From Ochromonas danica (Eukaryota; Sar; Chrysophyceae; Chromulinales; Chromulinaceae), in contig VKHL01000003.1 in NCBI GenBank assembly GCA_015146655.1, positions 310,001 to 374,000 of the forward strand: a stretch of DNA of 64,000 nucleotides, given 5' to 3'. The translations under genes were made by a program, and so were the position numbers. The notes beneath the pieces were generated by a model. That model was not told the origin of the DNA, made no database searches, and worked only from the letters and a program-made list of their open reading frames with translations. Shown here piece by piece: positions 14,550 through 53,908 of this stretch. Positions within the stretch are counted from its first letter, which is position 1, and each line of letters starts with the position of its first letter.

Positions 14550-16730
14550 ATGATGTTATGGAGATGGATGTGGATATTATGGATTGGATTGAACTTCATC
14601 TTTATTTTCCATGTCGTCTCCTCTCTTATTATTGATAGTTATTGTCATAATGAAAGCAAAGATAAAGCAAATATGAATACCACCTCTACATTGTCAATAG
14701 AAGATCAAAACACTATTAACAGACTGTGTGATCACTACAATGGCTTCCACTATCCACCACTACAACACACCATCACTTTAGTTAGCTATGCTGATGAAAC
14801 AGCTTTGCCATACTTCTTATACTCTGCTATGCTATTGGAAGTCTTCGCTGACTTCCATGGTTATGGTCTACAGCTATTTTGCGCAAGTCATGCTCCTGAG
14901 GGATACCCACGAGAAGAAGATGCAAGATGGCAGAAAGTGCAGGTTCTTCGTGAGATAAGCCATCACTTCTATTCTAGTGGTAGTGGTAGAGGTAGTGGTA
15001 GTGGTAATGAAACACGATATCTTGTTTGGGTTGATGCAGATCTTATTTTCGTGCATTTCAATCATTCCTTAGATATCTTCACTATGGAACCTTACAGTCA
15101 CTATGAGATGATCATCTCTGCTGAAGTACATGGTGGGACAGGTGTAGCTAATACAGGTTGTTTTCTTCTTCAACTATATCCACAGCAACAATCATCACAA
15201 TCTCTTCTATTAGAAGAATGGTGGGCTTTTGATCATAAGATAGGACATGATCAAATCCTTTTCAATACTTTCTATCAATCTCATTGGCAAGAAATTAAAT
15301 CAAGAGTTGCGATTGTACCAACCTTATGGTTAAACTCTCATCCACCTGTCTATCAGACATGGCAGGCAGGACAGGCAGTGCTTCATCTCATGGGAGAGAG
15401 TGTAGAGAGTCGCTGTGTTGTCTTCCATCACGCTGTACACCATCTCTGCCATCTCATTCAATCTTACAATAACTTTACTGACAGTGACCATTACTCAACA
15501 ATGGAAGTGGTAAACAATCTTCACCTTCTCCAACAGAATGAAGAAGAAGTAGTACCACTAGGAATTGATCAACAATTCTTACACAAGACATTCTACTCTG
15601 TCAGTCATCATCGTCTACTGAATATCATAACAAAGTTAAGAAGAGACAACAAGTTTGAAGAAGATGATGACTGGCAAAGTTGGTTGTCTCTCTGGCAAGA
15701 AAGTAGGGAATTGTTATTAACTCTACAGAAGCTTGCCATGCCTCTGTATGAGTTAGAAACTTGGCATAAGAGACTATATTGTAGATGGTTGACCTTTCTT
15801 CTCTCCCACTGGATGACAGAGATGATCAGTCATGTACACTCTATTCGACTATGTGATATTCAACAGAGAGAGAATGAGATTGAAAAGATACAACAGCCAA
15901 AGAACATGTCGTCAATATTATCATCTGATCGTTTAATAGAAGCTATTCATATGCTTGCTATATTAGGTAATGACTGGTTAACCGATCTCTTTCATCTCAT
16001 GGAAGGAGATGAGAAGGTAACCGAAGGTAATCTGCAGGGATTGATTGACGATCTTCGATCTTACCTACAGACTTTGCTACATCTCACCCATCCTCAATCC
16101 CATAGACTAATCAATGAACATCAAGCTATGCTATGGCAGAGTCAAGCAAGATTGTCTATCTATCACAATCGATCTGACGAAGCTCTCTATGCTTTAGAAA
16201 AGGCATTGGATAGTTTGGGACAGACAGGCAATGCTTTCCATCGCTTGCCTGTTTTGATTGCTCTGGGAGATCTTCTGTGCCATACAAGCCCTGCTGATTC
16301 TTTTAGCCAGGAGATTGGTGGCAACATATCACTGGGCATGTTCTATTACCACCAGTCTATTGAAATGCTAGAAGGTCTTCTTCGTATGGAAGAACAATAC
16401 AAAGCTGAACATGATCTTCTCGTAGGAGCATTAGAAGGTGCAATACAATGTCATTATGACTCCTCCTCCTCTTCCATGGAGATGATTGAGATTTACAAGC
16501 ATAGAGTTCATACACTGCGGGAATGGAAGAATCGCTCTCATAATGCAAACCTTCCTATTCGACAAGAAGAGAAGCAAATCAAAGGCAACACTGCTCCCTC
16601 AAGAAACACTCAAGAGAATGATAATCATCCTTTATCAGCTACAATGATTACAAATAGGACACCTTCTTCCTTCAGAGGTCAACAGTCGTCAATGACAAAG
16701 AAATTCCGCAAAAAGAGGAGTGTTGGATGA
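14550..16730 (+). CDS. GT-A-fold glycosyltransferase with long helical C-terminus (paralogue of 30307-32079)
   Basis: Single exon of 726 aa. An N-terminal signal anchor (LWIGLNFIFIFHVVSSLII) implies a Golgi or ER luminal enzyme. The catalytic half runs from HTITLVSYADE to YLVWVDADLIF, which carries the DxD metal/sugar-nucleotide motif. VANTGCFLL, LLEEWWAF, HDQILFNTF and VLHLMGES follow, an order like the GMA12/MNN10 (GT34-type) nucleotide-sugar transferases. About 400 further residues are alpha-helical and TPR-like in places. A basic tail (KKFRKKRS) ends the protein. DADL, NTG, WW, DQ and LHLMGE blocks are shared with the gene at 30307-32079. Donor and acceptor sugars are unknown. Confidence 0.75.
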   Translation: MMLWRWMWILWIGLNFIFIFHVVSSLIIDSYCHNESKDKANMNTTSTLSIEDQNTINRLCDHYNGFHYPPLQHTITLVSYADETALPYFLYSAMLLEVFADFHGYGLQLFCASHAPEGYPREEDARWQKVQVLREISHHFYSSGSGRGSGSGNETRYLVWVDADLIFVHFNHSLDIFTMEPYSHYEMIISAEVHGGTGVANTGCFLLQLYPQQQSSQSLLLEEWWAFDHKIGHDQILFNTFYQSHWQEIKSRVAIVPTLWLNSHPPVYQTWQAGQAVLHLMGESVESRCVVFHHAVHHLCHLIQSYNNFTDSDHYSTMEVVNNLHLLQQNEEEVVPLGIDQQFLHKTFYSVSHHRLLNIITKLRRDNKFEEDDDWQSWLSLWQESRELLLTLQKLAMPLYELETWHKRLYCRWLTFLLSHWMTEMISHVHSIRLCDIQQRENEIEKIQQPKNMSSILSSDRLIEAIHMLAILGNDWLTDLFHLMEGDEKVTEGNLQGLIDDLRSYLQTLLHLTHPQSHRLINEHQAMLWQSQARLSIYHNRSDEALYALEKALDSLGQTGNAFHRLPVLIALGDLLCHTSPADSFSQEIGGNISLGMFYYHQSIEMLEGLLRMEEQYKAEHDLLVGALEGAIQCHYDSSSSSMEMIEIYKHRVHTLREWKNRSHNANLPIRQEEKQIKGNTAPSRNTQENDNHPLSATMITNRTPSSFRGQQSSMTKKFRKKRSVG

Positions 16731-30306: not shown

Positions 30307-32079
30307 CTAACGTTTAGCATAATACCGTAAATTATGACAACTGTACTTCCACCTCTTGTTTGCATCATCACCATCATCATCGTCATTCACATAATCTACA
30401 TTATTTACACCTTTCATCATACAAACAGAGCAGACATTTCGAAGAGCTTCAATAGTCAAGCGCTTCTCGAGGATATTCTCATCATTAGCACGTATCGCTC
30501 TATCCAACGCTAGCTGACACCATCTCCATGCAGAGAGCTGTTCTTCCTTTTTCATTGACATAGATGCTATCCTAGTGTATACCTCCGACAAATCTACCCA
30601 GAGGGAAGAAAGAGCCATTCCCAGCTCATCAGCAGTTATTATCAGTCCAGCTGCTTCCTCCATCAGAGATGCTGCCGTCATTTCTGCTTCTAGAGACAAA
30701 TCCATAATAGAGGCGGTGCGATACCTTGCAGCCATTCGAAGCCATCCTTCAGACTTTACAGTCGCTAAATGAACTCTACCCATCAGATCCTGCTCACCAA
30801 CGGCCACGAGGAGTTGATCAACTGATCTCAACAGTTCAAGAGCCACAGACAAGAACTGCTCCAATCCATCACTTGTGACATATTTCATACGCAGTGTCAG
30901 CAGTGACACCATCTGTTCGAGATGGACCAGATGCACAACAGAGGTCGTTTGCTCACTTTCCTCGAGACTTTTCCTCACAATGCGGTCAACAGCCCCAAGA
31001 AAGTATTTACAATGCTCTGGTTGTTCCTTGTCTTCTTCTTGCAACCGGGCTTGCCAGGCACAGAAGTGACTCAACAAATTGAATAGGTCATCTATGCGAC
31101 TAACTTCACCTTGATGATAATCAGACAAGAGGTTTGTCATCATGTCAAGTAAGACCTTGAGCTTGACCTCTTCCAGCATCTCTCTATGCAGAGTAATCCG
31201 ATAATCTGAGCGAGGCTTTGGTACAGTTTCCGTGGCAATAGTAGCAGATTGTGACTGTGCTATGGTTGTCTCCCATAATTGTTGCAATGAAAGTGTAGCC
31301 ACAGCTTTCCGAACCTCATCGAGCTCGCCCATTAAGTGCAACACTTTATCTTCCTGCTCAGAGAAGTGCTCCAAGGCAGGCCAGAGAGAGTTAATCGTAT
31401 GAGGTGGCAGTAAGGCGATATGGTCTAGTTCAGACCGCTCTTCTAATCTCAAGGAGAGCAAGTTCAAGGCATGCTGATCGCAGAAGACTCCGGGAGCATA
31501 TCGCAGTGACCACCACTCAGCGAGAGCTTGCCTAGACCAAGGGGTGTCTCGGACAATAATGAAACCCGTGTTAGCCCAGTCTAGTGAGTCCTGTGCTAAG
31601 AGAAGATCAGCTTTAGGGTGGGCCAGTAACAGTTGTTCGATATCCACGGAAGAGTCCAAGACCATCAAGTCAGCATCGAGATAGACCAAGACTCTCTGCT
31701 TTCTATCCCCACTTGCCCTAAGAGAATCTCCTCCCACTTCGTTAGAAGCTGCCATGATTGGGGTGGAGTAGGAGGACAGAAGGTCGAGCAAGAGCATGAC
31801 CTTGACCCATCGCAGGTCACTCTCGCTCTCCTGCAAAGAGGAATCACCTTCCAGAAGGTGATAGTGATAACCACGATGGGTTGCATAATGAGCATTGATC
31901 TGTGAGCAAGGTAGAGCATAAGGGAGGATATTGCTAGAGGAGAAGGTCAGCAGAGTAATGTTGTAGTGGTTGAGGTGATGATGATGATCCTGGGATCTTG
32001 TCCAGGACTCTAAAATGATCAAAAGGAAAATCAATGCTGATGCTATTCGCGCATGAAAACCACCCTCTTGCCTTCCCAT
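30307..32079 (-). CDS. GT-A-fold glycosyltransferase (paralogue of 14550-16730)
   Basis: Single exon of 590 aa. An N-terminal signal anchor (IASALIFLLIILESW) precedes the catalytic domain. It has YNITLLTFSSSN, LRWVKVMLLLDLL, VLVYLDADLMVLDSS (DxD), LLLAQDSLDWANTGFIIVRD, LAEWWSLRY, CDQHALNLL and VLHLMGELDEV. These blocks occur in the same order in the gene at 14550-16730, so the two are divergent paralogues. The pattern recalls GT34-type galactosyl or mannosyl transferases. The C-terminal ~280 residues are helical, and an acidic Asp-rich patch lies near the end. A luminal Golgi location is inferred. Confidence 0.75.
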   Translation of the reverse strand: MGRQEGGFHARIASALIFLLIILESWTRSQDHHHHLNHYNITLLTFSSSNILPYALPCSQINAHYATHRGYHYHLLEGDSSLQESESDLRWVKVMLLLDLLSSYSTPIMAASNEVGGDSLRASGDRKQRVLVYLDADLMVLDSSVDIEQLLLAHPKADLLLAQDSLDWANTGFIIVRDTPWSRQALAEWWSLRYAPGVFCDQHALNLLSLRLEERSELDHIALLPPHTINSLWPALEHFSEQEDKVLHLMGELDEVRKAVATLSLQQLWETTIAQSQSATIATETVPKPRSDYRITLHREMLEEVKLKVLLDMMTNLLSDYHQGEVSRIDDLFNLLSHFCAWQARLQEEDKEQPEHCKYFLGAVDRIVRKSLEESEQTTSVVHLVHLEQMVSLLTLRMKYVTSDGLEQFLSVALELLRSVDQLLVAVGEQDLMGRVHLATVKSEGWLRMAARYRTASIMDLSLEAEMTAASLMEEAAGLIITADELGMALSSLWVDLSEVYTRIASMSMKKEEQLSAWRWCQLALDRAIRANDENILEKRLTIEALRNVCSVCMMKGVNNVDYVNDDDDGDDANKRWKYSCHNLRYYAKR

Positions 32080-32664: not shown

Positions 32665-34021
32665 ATGGCAGTCGATCGCAAGGAAGCTAACATGAAAATG
32701 CTCCAGGACACGGTGGAGGTGCAAAATAAAACCAAAGATGCAGTCGTGCGCATGAATCGTCAAGCCGTGGAGGCTGAGCAGCTGGGCGGTCGCACTTTAG
32801 AAGAGCTGCGTAGACAAGGAAATCAAATTGTAAGTTATGCCGTGGCCTCTCCCTACTGGGTCTCTTTGTGCTCTCTGTCACTGTGGTACAACACTGTGTT
32901 CTCAGTTGTTTTCACTCTTTGCCGATCATCTTTTCTCTCACTTTGTCATCATCGCATGATTTTCCATCCCATGACGTGATCGCTAATTTCGTTACTGTGA
33001 TGTATTGTCCTACTAGGATGAGATTAGCCAACAATTAAGCTCAGTGGATAGAAAGTTGGACCAATCCAAGGCTTTGCAGTCTAAGTTCGACATGTGGGCT
33101 GGTAATTGGTTGGGCGGCAAGAAGCGACAAGCTTTGAAAGAAGCTGAGGCAGAGATTCGTGATCGTAGTCAGCAGGATTATAGCAAGATCAAGGAAGTCT
33201 TTGAGCATGAGAAATTTGACACTTTTAATCGCTCGTGGAAGAAAGCTGGACTTGTGCTATGCTCAGATCCAAGCATTTCTTGCGATGACGTCTTCGATCC
33301 TGCACTACAAGAAAGCTTGGAAAATAGTTACTGGAAAGTGGATTTTTCTCTGGTTAATATTGATCCTGATGGATGGACTTATGCCAACAGTTTCCAATCA
33401 CTCAACAAAACGGGTGTTGGTGATAGCACGCCGAAGTGGAATTCCTATGTGCGTAGAAGGAAATGGAAGTATACTGAGTCACGCACTGGCTCCGCTGCTG
33501 TGGACGAGTAAGTCTCTTGCTTTCTCTCTTCTGTAACCGCTTTGATTGAACACCAACATGTGTCGTTATCAGTATTTACCAACGCAATGAAGCTCGCAAG
33601 GCGAAGACTGCCGGCTCTCGTCAAGCTGAGAAACTTGGTTATGTTCCTCGCAATAAAACTACTGGAACACTTACCGCCAATGGAATGAGCAGCGCTGGCA
33701 TGGTTCGAAAAGGTGAAGACCAAGCTCTGGATGAGGAATCTGCTGCGGGTTTGGCTTATGTGAAGTCTGCAGATGCTGAGATTGATGCTGGTCTAGAGTC
33801 CTTGTCCAGAACTATGGACAACTTGACTGGAATCGCTGGTGCCATGAAGGATGAGGTGAGCAAACTTATTCTTTTAGATACGACTCTCTGGATGACTGAC
33901 AGGTGCTTGGCAATAGAGTTTGGCCCAGAACCAGAAATTGGATTATCTGGACTCTCAGATGGAGAAGACCATGCAAAAGCAGACGGTTGTCAATGCCAGA
34001 CAGAGATTCTTGTTGAAATAA
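32665..34021 (+). CDS. SNAP-25-type Qb,Qc-SNARE with an internal DysF domain
   Basis: Exons are 32665-32829, 33017-33507, 33573-33855 and 33917-34021, giving 347 aa. SNARE motif 1 (residues ~12-75) carries the zero-layer Gln in ELRRQGNQIDEI. Motif 2 (residues ~275-340) carries it in SLAQNQKLDYL, directly after the last splice junction. Between them, residues ~113-206 form a complete DysF domain: VFEHEKFDTFNRSW and CSDPSISCDD (DysF-N side), then YWKVDFSL, DPDGWTYANSF and YVRRRKWKYTE (DysF-C side). There is no transmembrane segment, and the usual palmitoylated Cys cluster of SNAP-25 is absent. The acceptor CAATAG at 33916 was chosen because it alone restores motif 2 in frame; CTGACAG upstream breaks it. 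Family role: plasma-membrane or endosomal fusion. Confidence 0.92.
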
Positions 34022-34790: not shown

Positions 34791-35880
34791 TCAAATAATG
34801 ACATGATCACCAATGGTGTTAATCCACTTTTCTTCAGCGGTCGCTGAGAGAGTATTCTCCCAAGTTCGTCCATCAGAAGTTAACACATACTTCAATCCAA
34901 CATCCATGTTGGCAGCAGATGACTTATCGAGTGAGCGACCAACAATTCGAGCAGGATTGCCCACTGCCGTAGCACCATCTGGAAGAGGTTTGAGTACCAT
35001 GGAACCAGACCCAATCTTGCAACTGTTTCCAATCCGAATATTTCCTAAGATAGTGGTGCCGCAACCAACCAATACATCGTTGCCAAGCTTAGGATGACGA
35101 TCACCTTTGTTCTTGCCAGTCGAACCTAACGTCACTCCATGCAGAAAGGAACAGTTCTTCCCCACCACTGCTGTCTCACCAATCACCACTCCTGTGCCAT
35201 GGTCAATCATTAATCCTTCATCTATACAAACAACGCACCTCTTGTCAGATTATCTCGTCAGACAAGGCACAATCATACATACTGACTGTTCATAAACCAC
35301 ACATCCGACATACACATCCTATACCTAACACTCACTCCTCACTCACTCACTCACCTATCACTGCTGCTGGATGAATGTCTACACCAAACAACTCTGAACA
35401 ACGTGATTGAACAGCTCTTGCCGCATTCTTACGATCTGTACGCCACAGAATATGAGCGATACGATGTGCTTGAATCGCCTTATAGCCTTTGAAGTAGAGG
35501 AAAGGATTGACTAGACCATCACAGGCAGGATCACGTTCTACGACAGCTTTCAGATCCAGAAGACCTAACTCTGCTGGTGTGGCCATATTGTGATCATAAA
35601 CAATATCATCTTTGTAGACAGCAGAGAACAGATTCTCCCATTCATTGGCTCCGATAATATCAGCAAATTGATGTGATAGATTGTGTGATATAGCCGCACC
35701 AAAGCTATCATGATCCAGGATAGATTCCTTAACAAGTGTTGCAATGAAGGGATCATGAGCAACCATCTCTTTCGCTTCAGCTTTCAACGCTGCCCATGTT
35801 GGTACCTTTCTTTTCAAGTGACTAAAGAGTCTTCTCTGACTAATAGAGAGAATGAATCTTCTCGTGCCAATCGTCATCAT
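34791..35880 (-). CDS. Serine O-acetyltransferase, copy 1 (with organellar-type presequence)
   Basis: Exon 1 is 35355-35880, the intron is 35222-35354 (133 bp, phase 1), and exon 2 is 34791-35221, giving 318 aa. It catalyses serine + acetyl-CoA to O-acetylserine, the first step of cysteine synthesis. The N-terminal helical domain has DPACDGLVNPFLYFKGYKA. The left-handed beta-helix has the active-site IDHGTGVVIGETAVVG and GDRHPKLG, then hexapeptide repeats (ILGNIRIG, GSGSMVL) and GNPARIVG. The start MMTIGTRRFILSISQRRLF is basic and hydroxylated, probably a mitochondrial or plastid presequence absent from copy 3. It ends in Ile (GDHVII), the residue SATs use to dock onto O-acetylserine sulfhydrylase. 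Part of the gene is identical to copy 3. Confidence 0.95.
35088..35537. repeat. 450 bp tract identical to 38255-38704
   Basis: By eye this tract is base-for-base identical to 38255-38704, at a fixed offset of 3,167 bp. It spans the end of exon 1, the whole 133 bp intron and the start of exon 2, with sharp edges on both sides. This looks like recent gene conversion between copies 1 and 3. Confidence 0.93.
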
Positions 35881-36310
35881 CTTGTAATGAATGTGCAGAT
35901 GAAGTTGATTGTAGTATGAGGGGCAAGGAGGTGGTTGGATCCGCCAGACGGGATCGAAGGTGAAGGGCGAGGAAGAAGATGTGCCAGAGAGGCGAGAGGC
36001 GCCACCCCACAAGCAGTCCGATGCGCTCTCAGGCTCAGCTCTGCCGCCTGGATGGGCTGGGATTGGCTCTGCTGTATGTCTCGATATCTTTCCCACGCAA
36101 CACAACTATTCTAGGCTAGCCAAATTATCAGCCCATCAGATATCAAATAAGATTAGATTAATATTTACATGAACGGGGGGTTTGAATGACACACTACTAT
36201 GAATGTAGTGTAGATATCAAAACAAGTAGAAGAAGTCATTGACTCCATTATTTCTTCACGCACATATGTGGAAGAAGATAGGTCTTCTCCTGATGGATAT
36301 AAAATCATTT
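35881..36310. other. Spacer between serine acetyltransferase copies 1 and 2 (430 bp)
   Basis: This is the 5' flank of copy 1 and the 3' flank of copy 2. It contains a short inverted repeat (ACACTAC...GTAGTGT near 36189) but no gene. Confidence 0.45.
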
Positions 36311-37317
36311 TTAAATCACTACATGATCACCCATTGTTGAAACCCATTTCTCATCTTCGGTTTCCAAGAATGTACTCTCATAAGTTCTACCATCGGAAGT
36401 GAGAACATATTTGAGAGCCAAGTCCATTGCATTAGCAGGAGATTTGCACATTGATAGTCCCACAATGCGGGCAGGGTTTCCAACAACGGTAGCCCCAGCA
36501 GGCACCGATCGTAGAACCATAGAACCAGATCCAACTTTGCTACGATTTCCAACACAAATATTTCCCAATATAGCAGCATTGCATCCAATCAGAACATCAT
36601 GACCTATCTTAGGATGACGATCACCTTTTTCAACTCCACTTGACCCCAAAGTCACTCCATGCAGAAAGGAACAGTTCTTCCCCACCACTGCTGTCTCACC
36701 AATAACCACTCCTGTGCCATGGTCAATCATTAGCCCTTCATCTATGCCAGAAGTTATGACATTCAAGTTAGCATTCTGTTTGATTTCTCGCAGCAGCAAT
36801 ATTAGATCTTACCTATAACAGCAGCAGGATGAATATCCACCCCAAACAATTCAGAGCATCGTCCTTGAACTGCCCTTGCTGCATTCTTACGGTTCGTATT
36901 CCAAAGGACATGAGCAATTCGATGGCATTGGAGTGCTTTGAATCCTTTGAAGTAGACAAAAGGATCCACAAGACCATCACAAGCAGGATCTCGGTCTTTG
37001 ATAGCTCCTAAATCTCTTAACCCCATCTCCTCTAAGGAGTGCATTCCTTCATGATAGATCTTATCTTCTTTGTAAACTGATAAGAAGAGTGCCTCCCATT
37101 TAGAGGCACTGATTGTATCAGCGAATTGATGTGCTAGATTGTGAGAAAGAGCTTCACCAAAGGATTCATGATCAATAACAGACTTTCTCATTAACACACT
37201 AACAAAAGGATCTTTGCTGATCATATCTTCAGCTTCTTTTCTGATTTCAGTCCATGACATTCTAATTCTGTGAGTAAGAATAATATTAGTAATTTTATGA
37301 GGACGAAGAAGGTTCAT
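36311..37317 (-). CDS. Serine O-acetyltransferase, copy 2
   Basis: Exon 1 is 36813-37317, the intron is 36742-36812 (71 bp, phase 1, same position as in the other copies), and exon 2 is 36311-36741. Active-site motifs are intact (DPACDGLVDPFVYFKGFKA, IDHGTGVVIGETAVVG, GDRHPKIG). The start is ambiguous. ATG 37317 gives a 19-residue basic extension (MNLLRPHKITNIILTHRIR) that could be a presequence; ATG 37260 gives MSWTEIRKEAEDM, matching copy 3. It ends in Ile (GDHVVI). It is the most divergent of the three, except for about 80 bp around the active-site codons (36651-36730) that stay nearly identical, and its intron differs in length and sequence. Confidence 0.93.
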
Positions 37318-37912
37318 GAGCAATTGAAATGAGAAGAATGAGAAAGGAGAAGGATGTCAAGTGTCTCACCTTGTTGACGTCGACATGCTTGTCAAGTGAT
37401 CAATGTCATTCCATGGCATAGTACAGGAAAAGGAGAAGAGAGTTCTGAGAGATTTAGTGACTCTCTCCCCCGCAGAAGTGACGCCACCCCCCATCTTGAC
37501 AGCAAAAACTCCCCATCTTGACTCAAAAACTGTTTGTGATGTGTTTCTGATGCTTTGGACAGTTGCAGGCTATCTGCCCCATGTTTAGCTTGTGACATTG
37601 CTTCAGCTTGATATTGGATCAGTGGCGTTGAACATCAAACCAAATAATGCTAATATTCAATACACGGTCATAGCATTTTGATTGTCAATAATGCAAAAAT
37701 TAGGCGATTGAACGCAACATCAGGAGTTCTGCTACAACTAAGTTCTCTGCACGCACACAAAGACAAAGGAGATGCAAAGTAATGAAGGAATGAAGAAGCA
37801 ACAAGTATGATATTAAAATTCAAAGAAGGTAGATAAACCACGGAAGAAAGTACACGGGAATATTCTATAGTACAAATAAGCAACCAGAGATAAAAGGAAT
37901 TGTAAGAATTCA
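37318..37912. other. Spacer between serine acetyltransferase copies 2 and 3 (595 bp)
   Basis: This is the 5' flank of copy 2 and the 3' flank of copy 3. No coding, repeat or RNA feature was recognised. Confidence 0.45.
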
Positions 37913-38969
37913 CTAGATAGTGACGTGAGAGTCTTCAGAAAGGGGTTGGGAAGTTTCAAATGGCTTGACAAGGTCTGGATCAGGTAGAGACTCAATCCAT
38001 TTCTCTTCCTCAGATGCCCCCAGCTCAAAATTAGTGCCATGAGATGTCACCACATGCTTCAAGGCTAAATCCATTCCATTCGCAGCGGAACTGCACAACG
38101 ATTTACCAACAATTCGAGCAGGATTGCCCACAACAGTCGCACAGCATGGAATAGGCTTCAACACCATGGAACCAGACCCAATCTTGCAGCAATGACCAAT
38201 GGTAATGTTACCAAGGATGGTTGCACCACAACCAATTAGAACATCATGACCAATCTTAGGATGACGATCACCTTTGTTCTTGCCAGTCGAACCTAACGTC
38301 ACTCCATGCAGAAAGGAACAGTTCTTCCCCACCACTGCTGTCTCACCAATCACCACTCCTGTGCCATGGTCAATCATTAATCCTTCATCTATACAAACAA
38401 CGCACCTCTTGTCAGATTATCTCGTCAGACAAGGCACAATCATACATACTGACTGTTCATAAACCACACATCCGACATACACATCCTATACCTAACACTC
38501 ACTCCTCACTCACTCACTCACCTATCACTGCTGCTGGATGAATGTCTACACCAAACAACTCTGAACAACGTGATTGAACAGCTCTTGCCGCATTCTTACG
38601 ATCTGTACGCCACAGAATATGAGCGATACGATGTGCTTGAATCGCCTTATAGCCTTTGAAGTAGAGGAAAGGATTGACTAGACCATCACAGGCAGGATCA
38701 CGTTGAGTCGTAGCAATGAGATCTCTCAATCCCATTTCTTCAGCTGAATGCATTCCATCATGATAGAGGACTGATGACTTATAAACTGATAAAAATAACT
38801 CTTCCCATTGTGGTGCACTAATAATATCAGCAAATTGATGTGATAAATTATGTGAGATCGCACTACCAAAAGAGTCATGATTTAAGATGGATGTCTTCAC
38901 CAAGTCAGCTATGAAGGAGTCATGCTCCACCATGTCTTCTGCTTCTCGTCGAATTGCAATCCATGACAT
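37913..38969 (-). CDS. Serine O-acetyltransferase, copy 3 (probably cytosolic)
   Basis: Exon 1 is 38522-38969, the intron is 38389-38521 (133 bp, identical to that of copy 1), and exon 2 is 37913-38388, giving 307 aa. All catalytic motifs are present. The protein starts MSWIAIRREAEDMV with no presequence, and no other in-frame start exists upstream, so cytosolic location is likely. The C-terminus is longer than in the other copies (EEEKWIESLPDPDL...) but still ends in Ile (DSHVTI). A 450 bp internal tract is shared exactly with copy 1. Confidence 0.95.
38255..38704. repeat. 450 bp tract identical to 35088-35537
   Basis: This is the partner of the tract in copy 1, with matching breakpoints at both ends and an identical intron. 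Confidence 0.93.
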
Positions 38970-50303: not shown

Positions 50304-51104
50304 TTATTTCACCTCCAGGGTGTTGGGAGGAGTGATGAAAGCAATTCTTCCAGTCTGGCTGTAGACGTAGTTGCCATAGTAGATGGCAGCGAACAGCTGG
50401 CCAGTACCTGCATAAACTGCGCTATTAGAACTTGTGAAAATACCAGAGGAGGTGAACTTGAAAGTATTAGTCGCAGCACTACCATTGACGTAAGTGAGAG
50501 AGTTGGTGATGGTGGCGGTGCTTTTGAGGGTCTGGCCTATAGAGAGCTGGTAATTGCTGTCGTAAGGATAGATAGTAGAAGCTTGATTGTTGTAAGGGTA
50601 GTAATAGACAGGATAAGAGCTGGGACCAGATAAGTAACCATAAGTAGTCACTGTGGAATAGAAGAAGTAGGAAGCTGCAATAGTGATACTGTAAGGACTG
50701 GTAGTGTCGCCACTCACAGCAGAGAGCTTGGGAGTGTTGGTTCCAGTCAAAGGGTCATACGATGCGGTGTAGGCAATGATGAAGAAGTTGTTGCTGAAGA
50801 ACTTGGTGGTGGTGTCACTGGTGAATGTGGCAACGGTTTGCTTGGAGGAGTAGGAAATCAAAGAAGCCTTAATATTGGTCACATATTGGTCTGCATTACC
50901 CACTGTGAAGTTATACTTGGAATCAAAAGTGATGGCATTAGAATTCAAAGAGACGGTAGCACCCTTGTCTGTAGTGGCAGAGAAGGTGAGGTAATAGCTT
51001 TCCGCAGTATTCTTCGTCTGAAATCCATTCACGAAATAAAAGGCAATATTGGCTTGAGCAGCCACAAGGAAAGAGGCTAAGAGGGCTACAAATAAGAGCT
51101 GCAT
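50304..51104 (-). CDS. Secreted Tyr/Ser/Thr-rich, cysteine-free protein, copy 1
   Basis: Single exon of 266 aa. The N-terminus is a clear signal peptide (MQLLFVALLASFLVAAQA). The mature protein has no Cys, Trp or Met, one Arg and roughly 10 percent Tyr, with Ser, Thr and Asn abundant. Alternating polar/aromatic stretches (PVYYYPYNNQASTIYPYDS) suggest beta-rich structure. N-glycosylation sequons are present (NFT, NGS). No known domain was recognised. The composition would suit a wall, scale, adhesive or coat protein, which is speculation. It is nearly identical to copy 3. Confidence 0.85.
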   Translation of the reverse strand: MQLLFVALLASFLVAAQANIAFYFVNGFQTKNTAESYYLTFSATTDKGATVSLNSNAITFDSKYNFTVGNADQYVTNIKASLISYSSKQTVATFTSDTTTKFFSNNFFIIAYTASYDPLTGTNTPKLSAVSGDTTSPYSITIAASYFFYSTVTTYGYLSGPSSYPVYYYPYNNQASTIYPYDSNYQLSIGQTLKSTATITNSLTYVNGSAATNTFKFTSSGIFTSSNSAVYAGTGQLFAAIYYGNYVYSQTGRIAFITPPNTLEVK

Positions 51105-51178
51105 GTTTTTCCCTTTAATTCAACTCACGACAACCAGAGCGAAGGATGATGTTTGCGCCAAAAGCAGCGGCCAAAAAG

Positions 51179-51190
51179 GTTAACTTCCCA
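51179..51190. promoter_or_regulatory. GGTTAACTTCCC element upstream of secreted copy 1
   Basis: This lies 75 bp upstream of the start and is followed by TGGTTGAAGTT. The same block is kept upstream of copies 2 and 3 although the surrounding flanks have diverged. Confidence 0.55.
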
Positions 51191-51504
51191 TGGTTGAAGT
51201 TTGGCCAAGCTCACCACCGCTTGGAAACTTCTTCTGGACCGTTTAATAGATCTTTTCAAACCAGAAACCAGGAGGCGGATGGGATGAACGACAGCTTTAC
51301 TGTGGGTCTTATGCTTCTGCTTCAGCAGCCTTAGAAATGCACCTCCTCGGTAAGGCTGCTGAAGTAGAATATGCATGATTCAAGAAAGTTATAAGGTTGT
51401 TGAGGGTTTAATTTAGACATTGTTTAATCCAATGTAAGACATCTTGTATCTCAGGTTGTCACATGCTAGAAGTCATCGTGTGCACCATAGAAGAAAACAA
51501 AAGA

Positions 51505-51527
51505 AAAGTAATACATTGTATTACTTT
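51505..51527. repeat. 23 bp palindrome 3' of secreted protein copy 2
   Basis: Identical to the palindrome at 50056-50078, at the matching place in the repeat unit. Confidence 0.8.
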
Positions 51528-51739
51528 ACAAAGACTCGCTCATCATGACGGGAATCCATACAGAGATGGTGCACCTTTACCGTGATCTACAGTACTTTCT
51601 AATCATTCAATTTGCTTTGCAAAAGCTGTTCACATTATACTCAGAAATATCTAGAAATATCTGCGTTTAGAATACCTGTGACAAAATACGTTATAACACA
51701 TCCTTTCAAGACATGTAGGCAAGAAGAATCTGCAGCACT

Positions 51740-52543
51740 TTATTTCACCTCCAGGGTGTTGGGAGGAGTGATGAAAGCAATTCTTCCAGTCTGGCTGTAG
51801 ACGTAGTTGCCATAGTAGATGGCAGCGAACAGCTGGCCAGTACCTGCATAAACTGCGCTATTAGAACTTGTGAAAATACCAGAGGAGGTGAACTTGAAAG
51901 TATTAGTCGCAGCACTACCATTGACGTAAGTGAGAGAGTTGGTGATGGTGGCGGTGCTTTTGAGGGTCTGGCCTATAGAGAGCTGGTAATTGCTGTCGTA
52001 AGGATAGATAGTAGAAGCTTGATTGTTGTAAGGGTAGTAATAGACAGGATAAGAGCTGGGACCAGATAAGTAACCATAAGTAGTCACTGTGGAATAGAAG
52101 AAGTAGGAAGCTGCAATAGTGATACTGTAAGGACTGGTAGTGTCGCCACTCACAGCAGAGAGCTTGGGAGTGTTGGTTCCAGTCAAAGGGTCATACGATG
52201 CGGTGTAGGCAATGATGAAGAAGTTGTTGCTGTAGAACTTGGTGGTGGTGTCACTGGTGAATGTGGCAACGGTTTGCTTGGATGTAGGAGAAATCAAAGA
52301 AGCCTTAATATTGGTCACATATTGGTCTGCGCTACCCACTGTGAAGTTAAACTTGGAATCAAAAGGGATGGAAATAGAAGTCAAATCGACGGCAACGCCC
52401 TTGTCTGTAGTGGCAGTGAATTCGAGATAATAGCTCTCTGCGGTATTCTTCGTCTGAAATCCATTCACGAAATAAAAGGCAATGTTGTTGGCTTGAGCAG
52501 CCACAAGGAAAGAGGCTAAGAGAGCGACAAATAAGAGCTGCAT
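51740..52543 (-). CDS. Secreted Tyr/Ser/Thr-rich, cysteine-free protein, copy 2
   Basis: Single exon of 267 aa, with the same signal peptide and composition as copy 1. The first ~105 residues differ from the other copies at about 20 places (for example LEFTATTDKGVAVDLTSISI, LISPTSKQ). The remaining ~155 residues and the 3' flank are identical to copies 1 and 3. An extra Asn follows the signal peptide. This split divergence suggests partial homogenisation by gene conversion. No intron, and no known domain. Confidence 0.85.
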   Translation of the reverse strand: MQLLFVALLASFLVAAQANNIAFYFVNGFQTKNTAESYYLEFTATTDKGVAVDLTSISIPFDSKFNFTVGSADQYVTNIKASLISPTSKQTVATFTSDTTTKFYSNNFFIIAYTASYDPLTGTNTPKLSAVSGDTTSPYSITIAASYFFYSTVTTYGYLSGPSSYPVYYYPYNNQASTIYPYDSNYQLSIGQTLKSTATITNSLTYVNGSAATNTFKFTSSGIFTSSNSAVYAGTGQLFAAIYYGNYVYSQTGRIAFITPPNTLEVK

Positions 52544-52648
52544 GTTTTTCTTTTATGAATTCAACTCACAGTCAAATATCAACACAGTGGAATATCAACA
52601 CAGTGAATATGTTTGCATCGATCTTGGCGCCGGCCAGAGAGCCAGAGA

Positions 52649-52660
52649 GGTTAACTTCCC
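52649..52660. promoter_or_regulatory. GGTTAACTTCCC element upstream of secreted copy 2
   Basis: This lies 106 bp upstream of the start and is followed by CTTGAAGTT. Confidence 0.55.
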
Positions 52661-52859
52661 GTCGTGCTTGAAGTTTGACCTAGTTTGGAATCTACATTGC
52701 TCATCTATCAGAAGTTTAAATCTTCTCTTACAAAGAGGTGGATGGTATGAAGGAGAACTTTAGAGTGGATAGAATGCATTATTCAAGAATATGAGGATTA
52801 AACGTACGTATGTCACAGGTTACAAGATATCGTGCGCAACATAAAAAGGAAACAAAAGA

Positions 52860-52882
52860 AAAGTAATACATTGTATTACTTT
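52860..52882. repeat. 23 bp palindrome 3' of secreted protein copy 3
   Basis: Identical to the palindromes at 50056 and 51505. Confidence 0.8.
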
Positions 52883-53107
52883 ACAAAGCCTCGCTCATCA
52901 TGACGATGTCAACATACGGGAATCCATACAGAGATGGTGCACCTTTACCGTGATCTACAGTACTTTCTAATCATTCAATTTGCTTTGCAAAAGCTGTTCA
53001 CATTATACTCAGAAATATCTAGAAATATCTGCGTTTAGAATACCTGTGACAAAATACGTTATAACACATCCTTTCAAGACATGTAGGCAAGAAGAATCTG
53101 CAGCACT

Positions 53108-53908
53108 TTATTTCACCTCCAGGGTGTTGGGAGGAGTGATGAAAGCAATTCTTCCAGTCTGGCTGTAGACGTAGTTGCCATAGTAGATGGCAGCGAACAG
53201 CTGGCCAGTACCTGCATAAACTGCGCTATTAGAACTTGTGAAAATACCAGAGGAGGTGAACTTGAAAGTATTAGTCGCAGCACTACCATTGACGTAAGTG
53301 AGAGAGTTGGTGATGGTGGCGGTGCTTTTGAGGGTCTGGCCTATAGAGAGCTGGTAATTGCTGTCGTAAGGATAGATAGTAGAAGCTTGATTGTTGTAAG
53401 GGTAGTAATAGACAGGATAAGAGCTGGGACCAGATAAGTAACCATAAGTAGTCACTGTGGAATAGAAGAAGTAGGAAGCTGCAATAGTGATACTGTAAGG
53501 ACTGGTAGTGTCGCCACTCACAGCAGAGAGCTTGGGAGTGTTGGTTCCAGTCAAAGGGTCATACGATGCGGTGTAGGCAATGATGAAGAAGTTGTTGCTG
53601 AAGAACTTGGTGGTGGTGTCACTGGTGAATGTGGCAACGGTTTGCTTGGAGGAGTAGGAAATCAAAGAAGCCTTAATATTGGTCACATATTGGTCCGCAT
53701 TACCCACTGTGAAGTTATACTTGGAATCAAAAGTGATGGCATTGGAACTCAAAGAGACGGCAGCACCCTTGTCTGTAGTGGCAGACAAGGTGAGGTAATA
53801 GCTTTCCGCAGTATTCTTCGTCTGAAATCCATTCACGAAATGAAAGGCAATATTGGCCTGAGCAGCCACAAGGAAAGAGGCTAAGAGGGCAACAAATAAG
53901 AGCTGCAT
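53108..53908 (-). CDS. Secreted Tyr/Ser/Thr-rich, cysteine-free protein, copy 3
   Basis: Single exon of 266 aa. It differs from copy 1 at only a few residues near the N-terminus (FHFVNG for FYFVNG, TLSATT for TFSATT, GAAVSLSS for GATVSLNS). Its C-terminal half is identical to copies 1 and 2. It has a signal peptide, no cysteine and high Tyr. It is the outermost gene of a head-to-tail array with ~1.4 kb spacing, all on the minus strand. Confidence 0.85.
   Translation of the reverse strand: MQLLFVALLASFLVAAQANIAFHFVNGFQTKNTAESYYLTLSATTDKGAAVSLSSNAITFDSKYNFTVGNADQYVTNIKASLISYSSKQTVATFTSDTTTKFFSNNFFIIAYTASYDPLTGTNTPKLSAVSGDTTSPYSITIAASYFFYSTVTTYGYLSGPSSYPVYYYPYNNQASTIYPYDSNYQLSIGQTLKSTATITNSLTYVNGSAATNTFKFTSSGIFTSSNSAVYAGTGQLFAAIYYGNYVYSQTGRIAFITPPNTLEVK

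Follow-up and report, generated by a model that had tools for sequence, protein, structure and literature searches.

SNAREs usually owe their place on a membrane to a transmembrane segment, a lipid tail or a tether; DysF is a domain of lipid-binding type, known from proteins that act in membrane repair and at organelle contacts. A gene of the chrysophyte Ochromonas danica, in which the first-pass annotation had read a SNAP-25-type SNARE with a complete DysF domain between its two SNARE helices, raises the question of whether these parts belong to one protein, and of what the domain would do there. The window, i.e. the whole stretch of DNA that was analysed, comprises 64,000 nucleotides of contig VKHL01000003.1 (positions 310,001 to 374,000 of the forward strand), and coordinates are counted from its first letter unless another contig is named.

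Gene structure and SNARE motifs

The gene was spliced from the window as follows.

32665..34021, plus strand: DysF-containing Qbc-SNARE gene, four exons, 347 aa
32665..32829, plus strand: exon 1 (aa 1-55), Qb motif to just past the zero layer
33017..33507, plus strand: exon 2 (aa 56-219), the remaining Qb motif and the whole DysF domain in a single open exon
33573..33855, plus strand: exon 3 (aa 219-313), low-confidence linker and the first half of the Qc motif
33917..34021, plus strand: exon 4 (aa 314-347 plus stop codon), from the Qc zero layer onwards to the C-terminus

The four exons join in frame, and their GT-AG introns measure 187, 65 and 61 nt. The EukProt protein P0001 is 100% identical to the 347-aa protein over its whole length, but as this entry could be a gene model made from the same species, it lends no independent support. 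Since one open exon (33017-33507) encodes both the last part of the Qb motif and all of DysF, the junction between them is not a splicing artefact. The DysF-Qc junction is spanned by the 65-nt intron, and it is here that a faulty gene model could have joined a DysF exon and SNARE exons from separate transcripts, the more so as transcript support comes from relatives and not from the source species. Against such an artefact, besides the exon common to Qb and DysF, stand five transcriptome-derived relatives which carry Qb, DysF and Qc in one chain (P0008, P0016, P0025 and P0052, which have MMETSP among their sources, and P0049, which bears a Trinity name). The first-pass annotation had named a DysF exon on another transcript as a refutation; in these relatives the DysF part is found together with both SNARE motifs instead, and we consider the artefact exceedingly improbable.

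The surroundings of the gene can be described briefly. About 585 bp upstream, in divergent orientation, lies a 590-aa ORF (30307-32079) that looks glycosyltransferase-like by eye and resembles the ORF at 14550-16730. The minus strand carries three tandem two-part genes at 34791-38969, serine acetyltransferase-like by eye (hexapeptide repeats), and, at 50304-53908, three tandem near-identical ORFs of 266-267 aa with signal-peptide-like starts.

The SNARE motifs and their central residues lie at the following positions.

32743..33088, plus strand: Qb SNARE motif (aa 27-79, layers -7 to +8), split by the intron 32830-33016; from the layer register and a SNAP-25 profile match
32815-32817, plus strand: codon of the Qb zero-layer Q51, RQG context
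33793..34012, plus strand: Qc SNARE motif (aa 293-345, layers -7 to +8), split by the intron 33856-33916; from the layer register and a profile match to the second motif of SNAP-25
33926-33928, plus strand: codon of the Qc zero-layer Q317, AQN context

Two Q-SNARE motifs with both zero-layer glutamines had been proposed, and both are present, register and SNAP-25 profile agreeing on Q51 and Q317. With a layer spacing that we take to be that of SNAP-25, the layers of 43 relatives have a mean Kyte-Doolittle hydrophobicity of 1.99 (Qb) and 2.11 (Qc) at shift 0, the highest mean at the other shifts from -3 to +3 being 0.22 and 0.58, respectively. When the window protein is shuffled 20,000 times, a single shuffle matches its second-best Q-centred register score, and the family profile matches SNAP-25 at both motifs, in the correct order, with an E-value of 3.7e-8. 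Position 51 is Gln in 43/43 relatives, while position 317 is Gln in 33/43 and His in 10/43; in a 67-row tree, made from proteins of at least 335 aa after three odd gene models had been removed by hand, His occupies the Qc zero layer in 14 rows, which requires 10 changes. The C-terminus lies 2 residues past layer +8, and no transmembrane segment follows the Qc motif. On the window protein, Pfam returns V-SNARE_C at 18.1 bits, below the cut-off of 27.1, along with two chance-level families; the same model matches 42/43 relatives at E <= 0.1 (best E 2.9e-10). The Pfam threshold is a criterion of detection and not a defining trait of Qbc-SNAREs, and by the features of its sequence, namely motif order, zero-layer Gln and the absence of a transmembrane segment, the protein is a Qbc-SNARE of the SNAP-25 type.

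The DysF domain in the linker

Like the members of the SNAP-25 family (SNAP-25/23/29/47, Sec9, Spo20 and plant SNAP33), the window protein has Qb followed by Qc in one chain, zero-layer Gln and no transmembrane segment. It differs from them in its linker, which holds a folded DysF domain and in which no cysteine cluster was found, the only Cys of the protein being at 137 and 144. The palmitoylated cysteine loop is also absent from several SNAP-25 relatives, so its absence is not special by itself. The features of the linker are the following.

33095..33124, plus strand: WAGNWLGGKK aromatic/basic segment (aa 82-91), at the site of the SNAP-25 cysteine cluster; from conservation, with a putative role
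33191..33487, plus strand: DysF domain (aa 114-212); from profile, profile-profile and structure comparisons
33215-33217, plus strand: codon of the DysF tip residue F122, aligned with TECPR1 W77
33437-33439, plus strand: codon of the DysF tip residue W196, aligned with TECPR1 W154
33637..33651, plus strand: GYVPR motif between DysF and Qc (aa 241-245); from conservation

A plain Pfam scan found no DysF-type model on the single window protein, and the DysF-containing Pex24p model matches just 7/43 relatives at E <= 0.1, with a best E of only 0.013. Because Pfam misses the domain on one protein, profiles and structure were used, and these recover it. The family profile matches TECPR1 (8p5p) in the PDB at E 9.7e-5, profile-profile comparison with a VPS13-type DysF domain of the same genome gives a probability of 97.1 (E 5.5e-11, 96 columns), and structure comparison backs the DysF fold, with two long antiparallel strands and a wrapping loop. 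With dysferlin DysF the family profile reaches no better than E 0.96, and an unrelated hemagglutinin ranks above it at 0.42.

The DysF assignment of the first-pass annotation is upheld by these comparisons, but its word "complete" has to be qualified, since the domain is shortened and divergent and four residues of the Trp/Arg stack are missing. In TECPR1 this stack consists of W116, W118, W122 and W138 with R159, R161, R165 and R167 (PMC10476172). The counterparts of W122, W138, R159 and R161 are kept as W161, W175, R201 and R203; those of W116, W118, R165 and R167 are lacking. Compared with TECPR1, a beta-propeller autophagy protein with an N-terminal DysF domain, the window protein has a shorter domain with half of the stack, set within a SNARE. 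The ferlins (dysferlin and myoferlin) are different again, being multi-C2 proteins with a nested DysF domain and no SNARE motif. DysF is also what the window protein has in common with Spo73 and the Pex30 family of yeast; Pex30 resides in the ER membrane and Spo73 consists of DysF only, neither being described as a SNARE in the part of the source drawn on here (PMC4863634).

The linker also offers another candidate for an anchor. The WAGNWLGGKK segment follows the Qb motif, at the place of the SNAP-25 cysteines, and in the family alignment W82 is invariant and G84 and G88 are conserved to at least 90%, so that this segment could hold the protein on the membrane while DysF is a spacer or a relic. 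The conservation of DysF itself speaks against this: W161, D164, G174-Y177 and R201-W205 are invariant in 43/43 relatives, and a mere spacer would lose such residues. We regard this explanation as improbable. Between DysF and Qc, G241, Y242 and R245 of the GYVPR motif are conserved to at least 90%, within a stretch of pLDDT under 50.

Relatives, and other DysF and SNARE genes of the genome

The protein searches gave 125 distinct proteins including the window's own (P0001 and 124 others). A single-sequence search had 115 matches at E <= 1, a search with the 43-member alignment 106 at E <= 1, and one with 15 divergent members 51 at E <= 10. The two alignment-based searches scored the 8,000 best candidates each and found no remoter family among them; with this number of candidates the limits of the family are not proven. 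The DysF signature GW.Y...RRRKW is present in 70/72 homologues of at least 320 aa, the exceptions being P0048 (RRRTW) and P0092 (a gene model without that part), and in 48/53 of the shorter ones, which are mostly partial. The DysF-SNARE architecture is real and conserved, as the EukProt relatives and their signature confirm. The only hints at organisms are the chrysophyte Spumella elongata for P0025 and the record name GSChrysophyteH1 for P0044.

With P0001 and P0086 as queries, no second Qbc gene was found in the genome. Relatives were confirmed neither in viral contigs (58 pattern matches, and 4 with the C79 exon described below as query) nor in prokaryote genome contigs (220 pattern matches) and phages, sets from which records near the source genome may be absent. 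In the open-access literature, judged by titles and the beginnings of abstracts, no DysF-SNARE was found under DysF or dysferlin domain with SNARE, SNAP-25 or syntaxin, Qbc architecture, or stramenopile Qbc, nor among the best 20 of 504 matches on SNARE, DysF, chrysophyte, stramenopile, ochrophyte and protist. The one paper found for stramenopile Qbc-SNAREs concerns syntaxin 6 (PMC6156597), and a SNARE phylogeny with 285 Qbc sequences leaves DysF unmentioned in the part used here (PMC6143360).

A search of the genome found eight DysF places (C17, C162, C28, C20, C103, C7, the window gene and C79). Two of them, C17 and C162, are VPS13-like, with Pfam VPS13_M and Pex24p over their cut-offs, and C28 has Pex24p over the cut-off. 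Other DysF contexts recognised by eye are C2-like, coiled-coil and TRAF-zinc-finger-like sequence. C79 is a second DysF-SNARE candidate.

C79, exons 76945-77973 and 78055-78174: candidate DysF-SNARE protein, 382 aa, two exons

It has an N-terminal DysF domain, a middle part that is helical by eye, and a Qa-like SNARE motif around Q342; its last residues are CVIS, which we take to be a CaaX-type motif, and it has no transmembrane segment. DysF and the first part of the Qa motif, as far as the zero layer, are encoded in one open exon. Its DysF matches that of TECPR1 (E 1.9e-4) and dysferlin (1.7e-3), and its phmmer SNARE matches are Tlg2 (E 1.1e-4), Sso1 (5.2e-3) and syntaxin1 (1e-2). The best register is at Q342, with 12 of 20,000 shuffles equally good, and no Pfam SNARE model was found on it at E <= 1. 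Among the other SNARE-like ORFs, C19, C6, C56 and C21 are presumably Qa-like and C118 and C7:251998 presumably NPSN- and SYP7-like; all have ordinary hydrophobic ends by eye.

A possible membrane role for the linker DysF

What DysF may do in a SNARE can be approached through the tip of the domain. TECPR1 is no longer recruited when any of W77, L88, L89, I142, K152, K153 and W154 is replaced by alanine, and W154 is required for sphingomyelin binding, a property that the authors found in no other human DysF domain (PMC10476172). Pex30 DysF binds phosphatidic acid via the same aromatic/basic tip (PMC12101078; PMC12101077). In the window protein W196 corresponds to TECPR1 W154 and F122 to W77, on which the ends of the structural alignment agree. 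Position 196 is Trp in 40/43 relatives and in 110 of the 119 proteins with RRRKW, and position 122 is aromatic (Tyr or Phe) in all 43. Position 180 (TECPR1 D143) is Asp in 35/43, position 195 (K153) is Lys in only 20/43, and position 199 (C157) is Tyr in 38/43, including the window protein (Y199). At the equivalent of W196, Trp is absent from all 7 other DysF domains found in the genome, of which 2 are partial; C79 has a Trp one residue later. As the lipid-binding fingertip residues of TECPR1 and Pex30 are partly conserved, the membrane-sensing role suggested by the first-pass annotation is plausible, and from sequence and analogy the domain likely binds membrane; we do not class it with the sphingomyelin-binding DysF of the TECPR1 type. 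Damaged membrane, which had been named as an example, is one possibility among several targets.

The aromatic tip could also bind a protein; the main task of DysF would then be to bring the SNARE to a tether or to a machine for lipid transfer, and contact with the membrane would be secondary. The presence of DysF in the two VPS13-like proteins fits this explanation and may mark a shared contact-site network. It is countered by the lipid binding of the DysF domains of Pex30 and Pex31 and the inner DysF of dysferlin (PMC12101078) and of the N-terminal DysF of TECPR1 (PMC10476172), and by the retention of the tip Trp in nearly all relatives. We consider mainly protein-binding DysF rather unlikely.

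The reading that we favour, and hold to be moderately probable, is that of a Qbc-SNARE held on its target membrane by the linker DysF instead of by lipidated cysteines, so that complex assembly would depend on lipid. The two helices, Qb and Qc, would be given to the four-helix fusion complex, and DysF would replace the lipidated cysteines as membrane anchor and lipid reader. Its fingertip (F122, K121, W196 and neighbours) would insert aromatic side chains into a membrane rich in a particular lipid, perhaps phosphatidic acid if Pex30 is the guide or a sphingolipid if TECPR1 is, and this insertion would place the two helices next to a Qa-SNARE. In favour of a lipid reader we count the SNAP-25 match, the register, the DysF profile and fold, the signature in all but two of the long homologues, and the lack of a cysteine cluster and of a membrane segment; against it, the missing counterparts of TECPR1 W116, W118, R165, R167 and C157, the variability of K195, and the His found at the Qc zero layer of some relatives.

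The Qa partner could be C79, a syntaxin-like protein from this genome that likewise carries DysF, the link between the two being their shared domains. One may further imagine a DysF-Qbc and a DysF-Qa with a CaaX-type tail acting as a pair, both without transmembrane segments and placed by DysF, in which fusion would be permitted only at sites exposing the right lipid, e.g. on damaged or phagosomal membrane; we put this forward as a speculative and unlikely extension.

Yeast Spo20 resembles the proposed mechanism, although its lipid reader is a short N-terminal helix and not a DysF domain between the motifs. It too is a Qbc-SNARE (PMC6143360) with a phosphatidic-acid-reading segment of its own, residues 51-91, which is used as a biosensor (PMC12101078). 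This segment is unrelated to DysF and no homology is claimed.

The window protein is small and soluble, and could serve to measure which ligands DysF recognises and how the domain affects fusion. With a folded domain of lipid-binding type between its helices, kept in many diverged homologues, such a SNAP-25-type SNARE would couple lipid recognition and complex assembly in one chain, and would link the fusion apparatus directly with DysF, a domain that has been implicated in contact sites and in the repair of membranes. Its occurrence in the source chrysophyte and its relatives suggests a fusion machinery with a membrane reader of its own.
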